A DNA stretch of 64,000 nucleotides, taken from the NCBI GenBank assembly GCA_019359435.1, contig JAHHHI010000102.1, forward strand, positions 1 through 64,000. The letters are read 5' to 3'. How positions within the stretch are numbered: the first letter of the stretch is position 1; each line of letters starts with the position of its first letter. Under the pieces are notes generated by a model. That model ran no database searches, was not told the origin of the DNA, and saw only the letters and a list, made by a program, of their open reading frames with translations. The stretch comes from Kaiparowitsia implicata GSE-PSE-MK54-09C. Lineage in GTDB: Bacteria; Cyanobacteriota; Cyanobacteriia; Elainellales; Elainellaceae. The position numbers and the translations under genes were made by a program. Positions 6,790 to 49,740 of the stretch are shown in pieces.

Positions 6790-8308
6790 GGGCTCCAGCC
6801 GGCGCCACGTTCGCGCAGGTCGCGCAGCAATGCGACGAAGCCCGGCCAATCGGCAGCGGCGCGAGGAGGGCAGGGGAGTTCAGCAAGCGCGGTGACAGGA
6901 TCCGGCCGGTCGGCCATGGCGTCGAGCGCCGTTTGCGCCGATGAGGGCCCTACGCCTGGCAGAAGCTGCATGATCCGGAAGCCGGCGACGCGATCGCGCG
7001 GGTTCTGCGCGAAACGCAGTGCGGCCAGCATGTCCTTCACATGGGCTGAATCCAGAAACTTCAGTCCGCCGAACTTCACAAACGGAATGTTGCGGCGGGT
7101 CAGCTCGACCTCCAGCGGTCCGCTGTGGTGGCTGGCGCGGAAGAGGACGGCCTGCTCCTTCAACTGCATGCCCGCCTCCCGGTTCTCAAGGACCTCGTCG
7201 GCAACGAAGCGCGCCTGGTCCGCTTCGTCGCGCACCGTAACGAGGCGCGGTCGCTCGGCGGACTCGCGCTCGGTCCAGAGGTTCTTGGTGAACCGCTCCC
7301 TGGCGAGATCGATCACGCCATTGGCGGCCGCCAGGATCGGCTGAGTCGAGCGGTAGTTGCGATCGAGCGTGATGATTTCCGCCGGCGGGCTGAACTCCTT
7401 GGGGAAGTCGAGGATGTTGCGCACCGTGGCGGCGCGGAAGCTGTAAATGGACTGCGCGTCGTCCCCGACGACGGTCAGACCGCGACCTCCAGGTTTCAGC
7501 GCCGTCAGGATCGAGGCCTGAAGCCGATTGGTGTCCTGGTATTCGTCAACCAGCACATGATCCCAGCGCCCGCCGATATCGTCGGCCAGGATGGGATCAC
7601 TGACCATCTGCGCCCAGTAGAGCAGAAGATCGTCGTAATCGAGGACGTTCTGGACCTGCTTGGCCTCGACATAGCCCGCGAACAGCTCCCGCAGCTGTGC
7701 CTCCCACTGGGCAACCCAGGGATAGTTCGCGCGCAGCACGTCCTGCAGCGGGGCCTCCGCATTGACCGCTCGCGAATAGATCGCGAGGCAGGTGCTCTTG
7801 GTCGGGAAGCGGCTTTCCATCTTCGAGAAGCCGAGTTCATGGCGGACGAGGTTCATCAGGTCCGCGCTATCCTCCCGATCGTGGATGGTGAATTGCGGAT
7901 CCAGGCCGATCTGGTCGGCATACTCGCGCAGCAGCCGCGCGCCGATGCCATGGAAGGTGCCCGCCCAGGCGAGCGCGTCCGTCAGGATGCCAGCTTGTCG
8001 CCGAGCACCCGGGCGCAGATGCGCTCGACGCGGCGGCCCATCTCAGAGGCGGCACGGCGTGAGAAGGTCATCAGCAGGATCCGGCGCGGATCGGCGTCGT
8101 TGACGATCAGATGCGCCACGCGATGCGCCAGCGTGTTGGTCTTGCCCGATCCGGCGCCGGCGATGATCAGCAGCGGCCCTCCGATTTTGCCCCCCGCAAG
8201 ACCGACACCGTGCTCGACAGCGCTGCCCTGTCGCTCGTTCAGCTTTTCCAGATGCGCCGCGCCCATTTTCCGTCCCGCCCCCGTATCCGCCTGAGAATCA
8301 ACAATCAT
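6790..8308 (-). pseudogene. UvrD/PcrA-type superfamily 1 helicase, frameshifted and C-truncated
   Basis: From 8308 leftward: LNERQGSAVEHG (Q motif), IIAGAGSGKTNTLA (Walker A), then RRILLMTFSRRAASEM. The frame stops at about 7982 after LGDKLAS, but continues one base off as LAWAGTFHGIGARLL and then from 7856 with DYDDLL, VLVDEYQDTN (Walker B), GDDAQSIYSFR and TLDRNYRS. A one-base loss near 7985 separates the halves. Homology ends around 6790 (LLRDLRERGAGW); motifs IV-VI of domain 2A are absent, and the next sequence is the ribosome site of the SRAP gene, so about 200-300 codons were deleted. No active helicase is possible. Confidence 0.85.
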
Positions 8309-32120: not shown

Positions 32121-34745
32121 ATGGCAGGCAAGCTTCAGGCATATCGCGCCAAGCGCGATTTTGAGAAGACCAAGGAGCCCAGCGATGAGGCCCCGGTGGC
32201 TTCCTCGGATCGTTTGCGCTTCGTCATTCAAAAGCATGACGCGACCAGGCTGCACTATGACCTGCGTCTCGAACTCGATGGCGTCTTCAAATCCTGGGCG
32301 GTGACGAAGGGTCCATCGCTCGATCCTCACGACAAGCGCCTTGCGGTCGAAGTGGAGGATCACCCGCTCGCTTACGGCGACTTCGAAGGAACGATCCCCA
32401 AGGGCGAATATGGCGGCGGCACGGTCCAGCTCTGGGATCGCGGCTTCTGGGAGCCGGAAGGGAAACTCAGTGCGCAGCGGCAATTCGAAAAGGGCGACCT
32501 GAAGTTCACGCTCGCGGGCGAAAGACTGCATGGCAGCTTCGTACTCGTGCGGATGAGGAGCGACCGGGACGGCGGCAAGCGGACCAACTGGCTGCTCATC
32601 AAGCATCGCGACGAGCACGCTGTCGAGGGGGACGGCGAAGCGCTCTTGAAAGCCGATACGTCAGTGGCATCGGGTCGGAAGATGGCAGCGATCGCGGCGG
32701 GCAAAGGACGGTCCCCCAAGCCCTTTTTGCTCGCCGAAAACGTTCTGGCTCCGGATGCAGAATGGGATAGCCGGAGGGGACTCGCGGCCAAGCAGAGGCG
32801 CGGTGCACAGGCATCATCGGCGGAGCAAGAAGCACGCGCTGCCAAGATGCCGGCCTTCATCGCACCGCAGCTCTGCAAAAGCGTCGAGCGCCCGGCCAAT
32901 GGCAACGGCTGGGTCCATGAGATCAAATTCGACGGCTACCGCATCCAGATGCGGATCGAAGCCGGCAAGGCCACGCTGAAGACGCGCAAAGGCCTCGACT
33001 GGACCTCGAAGTTCCGTGCCATCGCGAAAGCCGCGGAGGGTTTGCCGGATGCCATCATCGACGGCGAGATCGTCGCGCTCGACAAGCACGGCTCGCCGGA
33101 TTTTGCGGCCCTTCAGGCGGCCATCTCCGAGGGCTTGACGCAGGATCTCGTCTTTTTCGCCTTCGACATGCTCTTCGAGGCGAACGTGGATTTACGAGGG
33201 CAACCGCTGCGCGAGCGTAAAGAGCGCTTGAAGGCCTATCTTGATGAGCATGCCGACGGCGTGGTGCTTCGCTATGTCGAGCATTTCGAGACCGGCGGCG
33301 ACGCAGTGCTGAAGTCGGCCTGCAAATTGTCTTTGGAAGGCATCGTCTCGAAGGCTGTCGACGCGCCCTATGTCTCGGGCCGCAGCGACACCTGGACGAA
33401 GGCGAAGTGCCGCGCAGGACACGAGGTCGTCATCGGCGGGTGGTCGACCACGGCCGGCAGGTTCAGATCGCTGCTCGTCGGCGTCAACCGGGGCTCCCAT
33501 TTCGTCTATATCGGCCGGGTCGGTACCGGCTACAGCGCCTCCAAGGTTGCGCAGTTGATGCCGCGATTGAAGGCGGTGACCGCCAAGACCTCACCCTTCA
33601 CGGGCGCCGGTGCGCCCAAGCGCGAGCCCGGTGTGACCTGGCTGAAGCCCGAGCTCGTCGCCGAGATCGAGTTTGCCGGGTGGACGGGCGACGGCATGGT
33701 GCGACAGGCGGCCTTCAAGGGACTGCGCGAGGACAAGCCCGCCGAAGAGGTCGAAACCGAGCTTCCAGCCGATCCGGAAGACATCGCAACGCCTGAACCT
33801 CGCCCTGTCCGCTCGCGCGGACGCGGCGGCAGGGCCGATGTCATGGGTGTCGGCATCAGCCATCCCGACAAGGCCCTTTGGCCAAATGCCGAGGATGATC
33901 GCCCTGTTTCGAAGCAGGAGCTGGCGGAGTATTTCGCAGCGATAGGCGAGTGGATGCTGCCGCATATCAAGGGGCGCCCTTGCTCGCTCGTGCGCGCGCC
34001 CGACGGGATCGACGGCGAGATGTTCTTCCAGCGCCATGCCGGCATGGGCACGTCGAACCTGTTCGAACTGGTCCACGTCTTCGGCGACAAGAAGCCCTAT
34101 CTTCAGATCGATCGGATCGAGGCGTTGGCCGCTGCAGCCCAGATCGGAGGCATCGAGCTTCACCCCTGGAACTGCGCTCCTGGCGATCCCGAGGTTCCAG
34201 GGCGCCTCGTCTTCGATCTCGATCCGGGACCGGGCGTCAGCTTTGGTGACGTGATTGACGCGGCCAATCAGATGCACGAGAGGCTGGAGGCGCTCGGCCT
34301 CACCAGTTTCTGCAAGACCACCGGAGGCAAGGGTCTGCACGTCGTCGCGCCACTGGCGCCCGGAAAGCGCAGCAAGGTCGATTGGCCGGCCGCGAAGGAT
34401 TTCGCGCGCCGGGTCTGTGCGGCACCGGGCCTCGCCCGGGGCGAGAGCGGCGCGACCGCCGTCGCCATCCGGTCGTTGCGGAGGTAGTCGAGGAATATGC
34501 GGCCGTTGCGCAGGCGCTTGGCCATGTTGACGACGTAGCGCGACGGCTCCTCGCTGGCCAGATCACACGCCTCGATGCCGCTGACGTGGTCTCAGGTGAA
34601 AGCCGGTCTCGACCCGAGTCGTTTCACAGTGAGGACACTGCCTGGCCTGCTCCAGAAGACCAAGGCTTGGGAGGGATACGACGATGCCGCCGGATCGATT
34701 GCCGATGCGATCAGGAAACTCGGGAAGCGAGCCGAGGCGGCCTGA
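32121..34745 (+). pseudogene. ligD: DNA ligase D (NHEJ), split by an internal 144-bp inversion
   Basis: Multifunctional end-joining ligase. Order: 3-prime phosphoesterase domain ([21 protein letters not shown], residue 34 on), ligase domain (EIKFDGYR with nucleophile Lys269; [19 protein letters not shown]), OB fold, and C-terminal primase-polymerase domain (HPDKALWP about residue 580; VFDLDPGPG metal site about 696). The frame as read stops at 34487 after 788 residues. On the opposite strand of 34420-34563 the missing segment is found ([23 protein letters not shown]), and the true C-terminus [15 protein letters not shown]...AEAA follows at 34572-34745. Flipping 34420-34563 restores 874 residues in frame. 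Confidence 0.93.
34416..34567. other. inverted segment inside ligD bounded by TGTG/CACA
   Basis: Left boundary TGTG (34416-34419) and right boundary CACA (34564-34567) form a 4-bp inverted repeat; the 144 nt between them read as LigD only on the minus strand. After reversal the left junction gives R-V-C-D-L-A-S-E-E and the right junction [12 protein letters not shown], both sensible for LigD. 144 is a multiple of three, so frame is kept at both ends. Confidence 0.9.
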
Positions 34746-34817: not shown

Positions 34818-35606
34818 ATGGCGCCGCGGACATTCTGGAAGGGGTATCTGAAGCTTTCGCTCGTGACGTGCCCCGTGGCGATGATGCCGGCTCGCTCCGA
34901 GAGCGAGAAGGTGCGGTTCCACACGCTCAATCGCAAGACGGGAAACCGGATCCAGAGCCGGTTCGTCGATGCCGTCACGGGCAAGCCCGTTGCCGATGAC
35001 GACGAGGTCAAAGGTTATCCCAAGGGTGACGACGAATATGTCATGCTGGAAGATGACGAGCTCGATGCCGTGGCGTTGGAGAGCACCCGGACGATCGATA
35101 TCGAGACCTTCGCGCCCCGCTCCTCGGTCGGCTGGATCTGGTACGACACGCCGCACTACCTCGTGCCGGATGCCAAAGTCGGCGAAGAAGCCTTCTCGGT
35201 CATTCGCGAGGCGATGAAACGAACCAAAACGGTCGGGATTTCGCGCGTGGTTCTGTATCGTCGCGAGCGGGCCGTGCTCCTCGACGCCCGCGACAACGGT
35301 ATCGTGCTGTGGACGCTGCGCTATGGCGACGAGGTCCGGCCGGAGAAGGATTATTTCGGCGGGATCGAAAAAGCCGAACCGGACGCGGAGTTGCGGCCCC
35401 TGATGGACAAGCTGATCAAGACGCGCACCAAAGACTGGTCGCCGGAGCTTGCCACTGATCCCGTGCAGGCCGAATTGCTCAGCATCATCAAGGCCAATCA
35501 AAAGGGCCGCAAACCCGCAAAGGCGGCGCCCCGTCAAGCCTCGGAAGGCAACGTCATCAGCATCATGGATGCGCTGAAGAAGAGCCTCGAGCCCAGGCGC
35601 AAGTAA
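34818..35606 (+). CDS. ku: Ku homodimer DNA end-binding protein (first copy)
   Basis: A 262-residue bacterial Ku that encircles broken DNA ends and recruits LigD. MAPRTFWKGYLKLSLVTCPV start, KVRFHTLNRKTGNRIQ, KGYPKGDDEYVMLEDDEL, WYDTPHYLVPD and KDWSPELATDPVQAELLSII match the Ku core and bridge. A short Lys-rich tail ends KKSLEPRRK. Own stress-type promoter upstream. It lies directly after ligD, as in many Rhizobiales, and is convergent with a second ku. Confidence 0.95.
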   Translation: MAPRTFWKGYLKLSLVTCPVAMMPARSESEKVRFHTLNRKTGNRIQSRFVDAVTGKPVADDDEVKGYPKGDDEYVMLEDDELDAVALESTRTIDIETFAPRSSVGWIWYDTPHYLVPDAKVGEEAFSVIREAMKRTKTVGISRVVLYRRERAVLLDARDNGIVLWTLRYGDEVRPEKDYFGGIEKAEPDAELRPLMDKLIKTRTKDWSPELATDPVQAELLSIIKANQKGRKPAKAAPRQASEGNVISIMDALKKSLEPRRK

Positions 35607-35621
35607 TCAACGCGGACGCGA

Positions 35622-36464
35622 TCAACTCGCTTTTTTCCGTAGCGCCTGTTTCGTGGCAGCAGGCTTCGACTGCGCGCCGGCCTTACTACCCGTCGCTTTC
35701 GCGCTCTGGCGCAACGCATCCAGCAGGTTGACGACCTTGGTCGGCTCGGGCCGCTTCTGCGGCTTGAGCTTGCGCCCTTCGATCTTCGCCTGGACGAGTT
35801 CGGCCAAAGCGGATTCGTAGCGGTCGTCGAATGATTTGGGATCGAACTCCCCGGCCTTCGTCTTGATGATGTGCTCTGCAAGTTCGAGCATCTCGTCATC
35901 GATCTTGATGACTGGCACATCGCTGAATGCGTCCTTTGCCGAGCGCACCTCGTAGTCGAAGTTCAGGGTTGTCGCGATCAAGCCATCACCATGCGGGCGG
36001 ATCAGGATTGAGCGCATCCGCCGGAAGATCACCGTCCGGGCGAGGGCGGCCGACTTTTGTCCCTTCATCCCCTCGCGGATCAGCGCGAAGGCGTCCGACG
36101 CGACAGGTGTGCTCGGCGAGACGTAGTAGGGCTTGTCGAAGAAGATGTCGTCGATCTCGTCGCAGGGCAGGAACGTCTCGACGGTGAGCGTCTTGTCGCT
36201 TTCGGGAATGGCAGCGGCGATCTCTTCAGGTTCGAGGATGACATAGTCGCCATCGCCCTTGTCATAGCCTTTGACCTGGTCCTCGGTTTCCACGGGCTTG
36301 CCCGAGACCTCATCGATGAACTGGCGGTGGACGCGGTTGCCGGTCCTGCGGTTAAGGGTATGGAACGAGATCCGCTCCGCCGTCGACGCCGCCGTGTAAA
36401 GCGATACGGGACAGGTCACCTCGGCGATCTTCAGGACGCCCTTCCAGACAGCACGCGGAGCCAT
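35622..36464 (-). CDS. ku: Ku DNA end-binding protein (second copy)
   Basis: A 280-residue Ku paralogue: MAPRAVWKGVLKIAEVTCPVSLY, RISFHTLNRRTGNRVHRQF, KGYDKGDGDYVILEPEEI, FFDKPYYVSP, and AEHIIKTKAGEFDPKSFDD, with a longer Lys/Ala-rich C-terminal tail (KPAATKQALRKKAS) likely to bind DNA. It faces the first copy tail to tail, 15 nt apart. Rhizobia with several Ku proteins can form homodimers or heterodimers of different function, so a specialised role is possible. A loose stress-type site (GGAAC-N17-AGTT) lies upstream. Confidence 0.95.
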   Translation of the reverse strand: MAPRAVWKGVLKIAEVTCPVSLYTAASTAERISFHTLNRRTGNRVHRQFIDEVSGKPVETEDQVKGYDKGDGDYVILEPEEIAAAIPESDKTLTVETFLPCDEIDDIFFDKPYYVSPSTPVASDAFALIREGMKGQKSAALARTVIFRRMRSILIRPHGDGLIATTLNFDYEVRSAKDAFSDVPVIKIDDEMLELAEHIIKTKAGEFDPKSFDDRYESALAELVQAKIEGRKLKPQKRPEPTKVVNLLDALRQSAKATGSKAGAQSKPAATKQALRKKAS

Positions 36465-41516: not shown

Positions 41517-41557
41517 AACAGAGTGCCCGCCGAGCGGCGCTCGGCTGGCACTCTGTT
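41517..41557. terminator. long hairpin, probable terminator of a lost DUF892 gene
   Basis: AACAGAGTGCC (41517-41527) pairs with GGCACTCTGTT (41547-41557), and an inner CGAG/CTCG pair flanks a CGGCG loop. It lies where the intact gene at 45549 has its own terminator, that is directly after the stop of the remnant at 41567 on the minus strand. Confidence 0.65.
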
Positions 41558-47962: not shown

Positions 47963-49740
47963 ATGTCGCATGCCCAAATTGCGTCCGTGACGCTCGTCGC
48001 TTTGATGATGGTTGCCTTTTTGTGGGGCCGTTTCCGCTACGACATCGTGGCACTCGTTGGACTGCTGGCCGGTCTTGGGCTTGGCATCATACCCGCCTCG
48101 GAAGCATTCAAGGGGTTCTCCGACGACATCGTCATTATCGTCGGCAGTGCGCTTGTTGTCAGCCTGGCAGTCGCCCGCTCACGCTTGATTGAGAATGCCG
48201 TCGGCAAGCTTTCGCCGCATTTGAAATCGACGCAGCTTCAGGTCGCATTTTTAGTCGTGTCCGTGGCGATCATGTCCGCGGTGATCAAGAACATCGGTGC
48301 GCTGGCGATGATGCTCCCGATTGCCTACCAGTTTGCGCGCAAGCAGGGGATTTCGCCTTCCACTTTTTTAATGCCGATGGCGTTCGCGTCTTTGCTGGGC
48401 GGCATCGTTACGCTGGTCGGGACGTCGCCCAACATCATCGTCTCGCGGGTCCGGTCCGAGATGCTCGGGCAGCCCTTTTCGATGTTCGACTTCACCCCGG
48501 TCGGGATCGTCGTGGCTGCCTTCGGATGCGCCTTCCTGACGCTTGCCTATCGTCTGTTGCCATCGGATCGCCGTGGCTCAGTGGGCATGTCCCAGGCTCT
48601 CGACATCAAGGATTACGTCACCGAGGCCATGGTGGAAGAAACTTCGGAACTCGCTCGCAAGACCATCGCCGACCTGCGCGCGCTGGGCGACGACGAGGTT
48701 CACGTCATCGCCATCTTGCGTCAGAAGCGGGAAATGCCCGCGCCCTTGCCCGATGCGACGCTTCGTCCCGGGGATATCGTGCTGCTGCGTGGCGAGACGC
48801 AGGCACTCGAAAATATCGTGGCCGAAGGTGGCCTTAAACTCGTTGGTCGAGACCGCCCTACGGAGAAACCGGGCAATCAGGAACCCGCTTTGACGAGCGA
48901 GGCCATCCTCGGGCCGAGTTCCCCCTTGATCGGCCAAACGGCGAGCGATTTCGGTCTTCATGCGCGCTACGCATCAATCTTCTGGCCGTCAGCCGTTCGC
49001 GCGAACGGCTGACGGATCGCATAAGGGATATCCGGTTACGGGCGGGCGACATCCTGGTGCTTCAAGGAGACCAGGATCTGCTACCCGAGCGTTTCGGAGA
49101 CCTAGGCTTATTACCGTTGGCTGATCGAGCAGTCTCCTTGGGCGGCAAGCGCCGCGTTCTCGTTACGTCGGCAATAGTAGTTGGAGCAGTCGTCGCGCTG
49201 GCACTTGGACTTGCGACGGTGCCGATCGTCTTCTTCACTGCCGCAGTACTCCTGATCGCATTCAAATCCGTTCCGCTCCGTGATGCTTATAGCACCATCG
49301 ACGCACCGATCCTTCTGATGCTCGCGGCCTTGATCCCGATCAGCGACACCTTGCGGACGACCGGAACGACCGATCTCCTGGCGTCCTCGCTTGCACAGGT
49401 TGGAAGTGGGCTGCCGGGTTGGGCTGCGCTCGCTTTGATCGTCGCGACCACGATGGCGCTGACGCCGTTCCTCAACAATGCCGCGACCGTACTGGTCATG
49501 GCGCCGATAGCGGCGGGGTTCGCGACCAAACTCGGCTACAAGCCAGATGCCTTCTTGATGGCCTGCGCGATCGGCGCGGCAAGCGACTTCCTCACGCCGA
49601 TCGGCCATCAGTGCAATACGCTCGTCATGGGACCGGGCGGCTATCGCTTCAGTGATTACCCTCGCTTGGGCGCCCCCCTGACACTGCTCGTCCTCCTCAT
49701 ATCGGTGCCGATGCTCATCCTGATATGGCCGCTGAAGTGA
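47963..49740 (+). pseudogene. SLC13/DASS-type anion transporter with RCK_C domains, frameshifted
   Basis: About 592 codons of a divalent-anion:Na+ symporter family protein. The N-terminal half has hydrophobic helices (IVALVGLLAGLGLGIIP; IVIIVGSALVVSLAVA; NIGALAMMLPIAYQFA) and the LVGTSPNIIVSRVR motif, then TrkA-C type regulatory segments (HVIAILRQKREMP; PGDIVLLRGE). At 48972 one base is missing: the frame stops at 49012, while INLLAVSRSRERLTDRI, a second RCK_C block and the C-terminal helices with LTPFLNNAATVLVMAPIA and TPIGHQCNTLVMGPGGY continue to 49740. Either a decayed gene or a sequencing error; all other motifs look sound. Confidence 0.85.

Follow-up and report, generated by a model that had tools for sequence, protein, structure and literature searches.

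A 143-bp inverted segment truncates the polymerase domain of LigD on a Bosea-like contig in a cyanobacterial genome assembly

A segment of 143 bp within a bacterial ligD gene, at 34422-34564 of the window (the whole 64,000-nt stretch of DNA analyzed here), is the reverse complement of the ligD codons expected at that place. The gene begins with an ATG at 32121, in alignment with the start codon annotated for ligD in Bosea sp. Tri-49, and as assembled it encodes a protein of 788 aa, composed of 767 native and 21 junk residues, that ends at a premature TAG at 34487. On balance, we favor the explanation that a single, recent, unprogrammed and near-blunt microinversion took place in a Bosea-like strain whose DNA accompanies the cyanobacterium. 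The features on which the analysis turns are as follows.

32121-34487, plus strand: ligD as assembled (ORF list and Pfam), with LigD_N, the ATP-dependent ligase and the first two thirds of Prim-Pol
34421-34422, no strand: left junction, ambiguous by 1 nt, with no base lost or gained relative to relative G100
34422-34564, minus strand: inverted segment of 143 bp, from alignments to relatives
34564-34565, no strand: right junction, where the flank begins ACACGCCTC, as it does in relative G102
34565-34745, plus strand: true ligD C-terminus, in the original frame, behind the premature stop
34818-35606, plus strand: Ku gene (Pfam PF02735) directly downstream of ligD, ATG from the sequence
35622-36464, minus strand: second, convergent Ku gene (Pfam PF02735)

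When the segment is turned back in silico, ligD becomes an open frame of 874 codons in which the only stop is the terminal one. This agrees with the sequence-only reading, an earlier interpretation of the same DNA, which had described a restored gene of 874 residues without any other lesion, as well as a LigD frame that is lost and then resumes, in its original register, at the C-terminus; both of these latter features are present in the sequence. The open frame as assembled matches PF13298, PF01068, PF04679 and PF21686, and the phosphoesterase and ligase domains thus stay open, as had been claimed. The Prim-Pol match of this frame, by contrast, reaches only position 170 of the 254 positions of the Pfam profile, and a further match, to the end of the LigD_Prim-Pol profile (220-250), lies at 34566-34742 but scores below the cut-off. 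In a search of the assembly itself with the Prim-Pol profile, the plus-strand match contained two TAG stops, and a separate minus-strand match at 34421-34570 covered profile positions 169-218, indicating that the missing middle of the domain sits on the opposite strand.

The lost portion includes a catalytic residue. The catalytic aspartates of the Mycobacterium tuberculosis LigD polymerase are given as Asp137, Asp139 and Asp227 in a portion of PMC8656161. When the intact Bosea lathyri domain was aligned with M. tuberculosis LigD (2iru_A), the aspartate of the IFLDYLRN motif fell at chain position 230 and the motif I aspartates at chain positions 140 and 142 (hand counts), an offset of 3 from the published numbers throughout. 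The DLD motif is kept in the open frame. The motif III aspartate (IFLDYLRN; D793 of the intact frame by hand count), the equivalent of Asp227, lies inside the inverted segment, and the third metal ligand among the three aspartates required by the LigD polymerase is therefore absent from the assembled frame. The earlier claim of a broken polymerase domain is accordingly upheld, with the third catalytic aspartate placed outside the frame. These observations suggest that the polymerase is dead, while the ligase and phosphoesterase may work.

The extent of the inverted unit was set by alignment to relatives. In the alignment to G100, the upstream flank runs up to 34422, followed by an inverted block at 34422-34564 (94.4% identity) and by the downstream flank from 34566. 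The antisense piece was recovered in 8/8 of the Bosea-type records searched (81-96% identity), with 94.4% identity to G100 and 95.7% to G102, which rules out a chance match. Its minus strand encodes a peptide ending in RPG, followed by two bases of the next codon. Once 34422-34564 is turned back, the sequence can be aligned with G100, and with all but one of 13 Bosea loci, without a single gap; the exception, L036, has 2 gap letters with the 143-bp unit and 8 with a 144-bp unit. A flip of 34423-34563 would yield the identical sequence, because one base pairs at each end. The right flank shares with G102 the bases GGTGC and then ACACGCC, so that no base change is required at the right junction.

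The sequence-only reading had correctly placed the missing codons on the opposite strand; its coordinates, 34420-34563, do not hold, as the gap-free unit is 34422-34564. That 144-bp unit leaves 6 gap letters against G100 and against each of the other 12 Bosea loci, requires indels in 14/14 of the relatives aligned (G100 and the 13 Bosea loci), and spares at most 2 mismatches per relative. The 143-bp unit is preferred because its rival needs compensating indels that are not found in relatives. The letters TGTG (34416-34419) and CACA (34564-34567), which had been proposed as the junctions, do exist in the sequence, but as junctions they would require compensating indels in the ancestor, and they were set aside.

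We compared the homology at the junctions with that of 20,000 random 143-bp segments of the contig. The 143-bp breakpoints share 1 nt, and at least 1 nt is shared in 46.7% of random segments; this homology is thus no more than expected by chance. The 144-bp breakpoints share 4 nt (at least 4 nt in 2.4% of random 143-bp segments), an overlap seldom reached by chance, which counts in favor of the 144-bp unit. The longest inverted match near the breakpoints is 5 nt (at least 5 nt in 13.1% of random segments). A microhomology-mediated inversion, as had been proposed earlier, is expected to leave inverted homology of several bases; the single, chance-level nucleotide at the best-fitting, gap-free breakpoints argues against that proposal.

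We then considered the orientation of the segment in other genomes. It was in the normal orientation in 81 of 82 related LigD loci (L023-L104), the remaining locus (L096) ending at a contig border before the segment. Likewise, the left part, the segment and the right part were collinear on one strand in 30/30 genus loci, a set that partly overlaps the 82 and represents some of the 46 genomes, among 67 in the genus, in which a match was obtained. This comparison with ligD of relatives had been suggested as a check by the earlier reading, and in both sets it returned the uninverted order. The closest relatives found, G100 and G102, both belong to the genus of Bosea lathyri. G100 is 93% identical across the 523 nt on the left and 88% identical across 2.4 kb. 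For G102 the figures are 91.5% across 12 kb and 87% across a match of 846 nt, the latter taking in the misaligned segment. The closest relatives are therefore about 7 to 12% different, and none serves as a same-species control. Two plasmid searches each gave one record with a match of higher identity (90-95% in one search, 95-99% in the other). A search for the left inverted junction, allowing up to 2 mismatches, in 298 family genomes (a sample of a larger family, many members of which may lack ligD) gave 2 matches with 2 mismatches each, neither in ligD; a backward control pattern also gave 2 matches in the same genomes.

These results bear on the possibility that the segment is a reversible intragenic switch, or inverton, that toggles the polymerase domain of LigD. 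Read on its own strand, the segment is undamaged, and turning it back restores the gene; intragenic inversions are, moreover, a described class (work cited in PMC11868660 and PMC11892184). Invertons are, however, flanked by inverted repeats of 10-40 nt, as stated in part of PMC11892184, and such repeats are absent here, where the breakpoints share 1 nt and the longest nearby match is 5 nt. A Pfam scan for recombinase families in 37 of the 55 picked window ORFs found none (3 of the 37 matched no family), the relatives carry a single orientation, and the inverted junction was matched outside ligD no more often than its control. We consider a switch very improbable, and the phase switch suggested earlier is abandoned on these same grounds: no inverted match longer than 5 nt, no recombinase among the 37 ORFs, and one orientation in relatives.

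A four-way codon comparison of the window, G102, G100 and locus L025 was used to look for decay. The window branch received neither synonymous nor replacement changes (0 and 0) in the 48 segment codons, as compared with 50 synonymous and 16 replacement changes in the other 801 codons compared. A single synonymous difference within the segment could not be placed on any branch, and the branch leading to G102 alone carries 3 synonymous and 3 replacement changes there. The absence of assigned changes is consistent with a young event, the age of which is bounded only loosely because the segment is strongly conserved in relatives. An artefact would equally show no decay. An old pseudogene was set aside, since no decay is visible in the segment.

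The contig on which the window lies, C61, is 138,601 bp long with a GC content of 0.62; its genes match Bosea, and its composition is unlike that of, for example, contigs C1, C20, C55, C72 and C80 of the same assembly. That assembly (6.72 Mb, 109 contigs, 4.41% contamination) carries photosystem II genes on contigs C23, C50 and C95, and also rpoB followed by a separate rpoC1-like frame, an order that we take to be cyanobacterial. A 16S search of the assembly gave no match, and the host was identified from other genes. The assembly's family comprises 36 genomes, 27 of them with a completeness of 90% or more and a contamination of 5% or less; in the 35 genomes other than this assembly, the best matches to the window LigD were at the level of the ligase domain, with E values of 2e-11 or weaker. 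We interpret the window as contaminating DNA of a Bosea-like alphaproteobacterial partner in a cyanobacterial assembly. Contamination of cyanobacterial genomes is a recognized problem because axenic strains are hard to obtain, according to portions of PMC6059444 and PMC6202449. In sampled stretches, contigs C60 and C62, and less clearly C63, C66, C67, C73 and C74, resemble C61 in composition. Contig C63 carries a second LigD-like gene (L116:11109-12940) with ligase and Prim-Pol parts and an apparent frameshift near L116:11900; the 8 of 107 plasmid records listed for this gene included no Bosea.

The main competing explanation is an artefact, in which the segment of a minor contaminant was turned around in the library, assembly, gap filling or data handling, and the living ligD is intact. 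We regard this as a serious possibility, although a somewhat improbable one. It is favored by the position of the gene on a contaminant contig of an assembly with 4.41% contamination, by junction homology no higher than chance, by the undecayed segment, by the absence of the inversion from all relatives read, and by one further gene on the contig that appears frameshifted. This gene, encoding a CitMHS/TrkA_C (SLC13-like) transporter at 47963-49737, is apparently split into two frames near 48950, so that the contig may contain sequence errors or mixed strains.

Several observations weigh against an artefact. An assembler that joins sequences on long shared words would find no repeat at these junctions to mislead it. 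A single chimeric read would account for one junction, not for two exact reciprocal ones. The window contains no N. Among 42 gene loci on C61 that could be tested against ORFs of relatives, ligD alone showed an antisense piece, in comparison with 24/24 relatives; 4 further loci were split in frame, each against one relative (G102), through an error or change that may lie in either sequence. A screen for small inversions, covering 46,564 of the 138,601 bases of C61, detected no microinversion other than that in ligD, which suggests that such errors are not widespread on the contig. Planted inversions were recovered by this screen in 45/60 cases at 50 bp, 44/60 at 143 bp and 52/60 at 300 bp, so that about a quarter of cases of the 143-bp size would be missed.

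Besides the ligD case, the screen gave two signals, neither of which was retained as a microinversion. The first, at 41518-41557, is a near-perfect 39-nt palindrome between picked ORFs that matches itself; G102 has a palindrome there too, and a strong hairpin is predicted, perhaps a terminator. The second is a 66-bp antisense match of 7429-7494 to locus L032. L033 and L034 are colinear at this place, and the match was read as a feature of L032 (L032:6766-7491, Bosea lupini), where an antisense copy of 7429-7494, 66 bp long, lies ahead of a fragment matching 7492-8156. This copy is a fold-back-like remnant.

We infer that the inversion exists in cells. A microinversion is supported by the clean, reciprocal 143-bp unit and by colinearity with G102 over 12 kb (91.5%). 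In the mechanism that we propose, two breaks would cut the piece out of ligD and end joining would reattach it backwards, the 143 bp being flipped with neither end gaining or losing bases. The flip would bring in a stop after 21 junk codons and leave a LigD of 788 aa, with the phosphoesterase and ligase untouched and the polymerase domain missing its final third and, with it, the third metal-binding aspartate. Cutting and rejoining appears preferable to template switching, because the exact conservation of both ends then follows automatically, whereas two template switches would need four points to coincide to the base. It is conceivable, though unlikely, that the flip is a footprint of the strain's own Ku-LigD joining, in which two nearby double-strand breaks were followed by lossless backward rejoining that disabled the polymerase arm of the very enzyme involved. 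In that case, a polymerase-free, ligation-only LigD may be tolerated or favored by selection.

If present in cells, the inversion would provide a natural allele in which the ligase and phosphoesterase of LigD are separated from its polymerase, as well as a case of exact microinversion without homology in a bacterium that possesses end joining. Should it prove to be an artefact, it would serve as a warning that biological-looking lesions can be present in contaminant contigs of reference assemblies.

The gene has the domains of the LigD class, with LigD_N, an ATP-dependent ligase and Prim-Pol in one protein, and its Ku partner, as two genes, is adjacent. The region from 2632 to 47201 holds a DNA-damage and stress cluster comprising two Y-family polymerases, an SRAP peptidase, LigD, two Ku proteins, a 3-methyladenine glycosylase and three DUF892 proteins, which is partly common to Bosea plasmids and to multi-megabase contigs of G100 and G102. 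The order ligD-Ku-Ku is also found in Bosea NBC_00550 and in Bosea sp. Tri-49, where plasmid NZ_CP017947.1 encodes a LigD of 874 codons. Identity to the Tri-49 LigD is 90% before the segment, 100% within it (47 residues) and 92% after it; unlike the Tri-49 gene, the window ligD contains the 143-bp inversion, and its product ends at 788 aa.

In a search of the literature, covering open-licence papers, none of the titles listed dealt with a microinversion in ligD. The lesion resembles intragenic invertons and other programmed inversions in that a short inverted stretch within a coding gene truncates the product, but it differs from invertons in that the segment lacks flanking inverted repeats of 10-40 nt, that a recombinase was not found among the 37 ORFs scanned, and that relatives showed no second orientation. 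Spontaneous microinversions are an unprogrammed class of mutation. The window case is like them in being short, confined to one lineage and bounded by breakpoints without long repeats, and it is unlike them only in that it sits in an end-joining gene.
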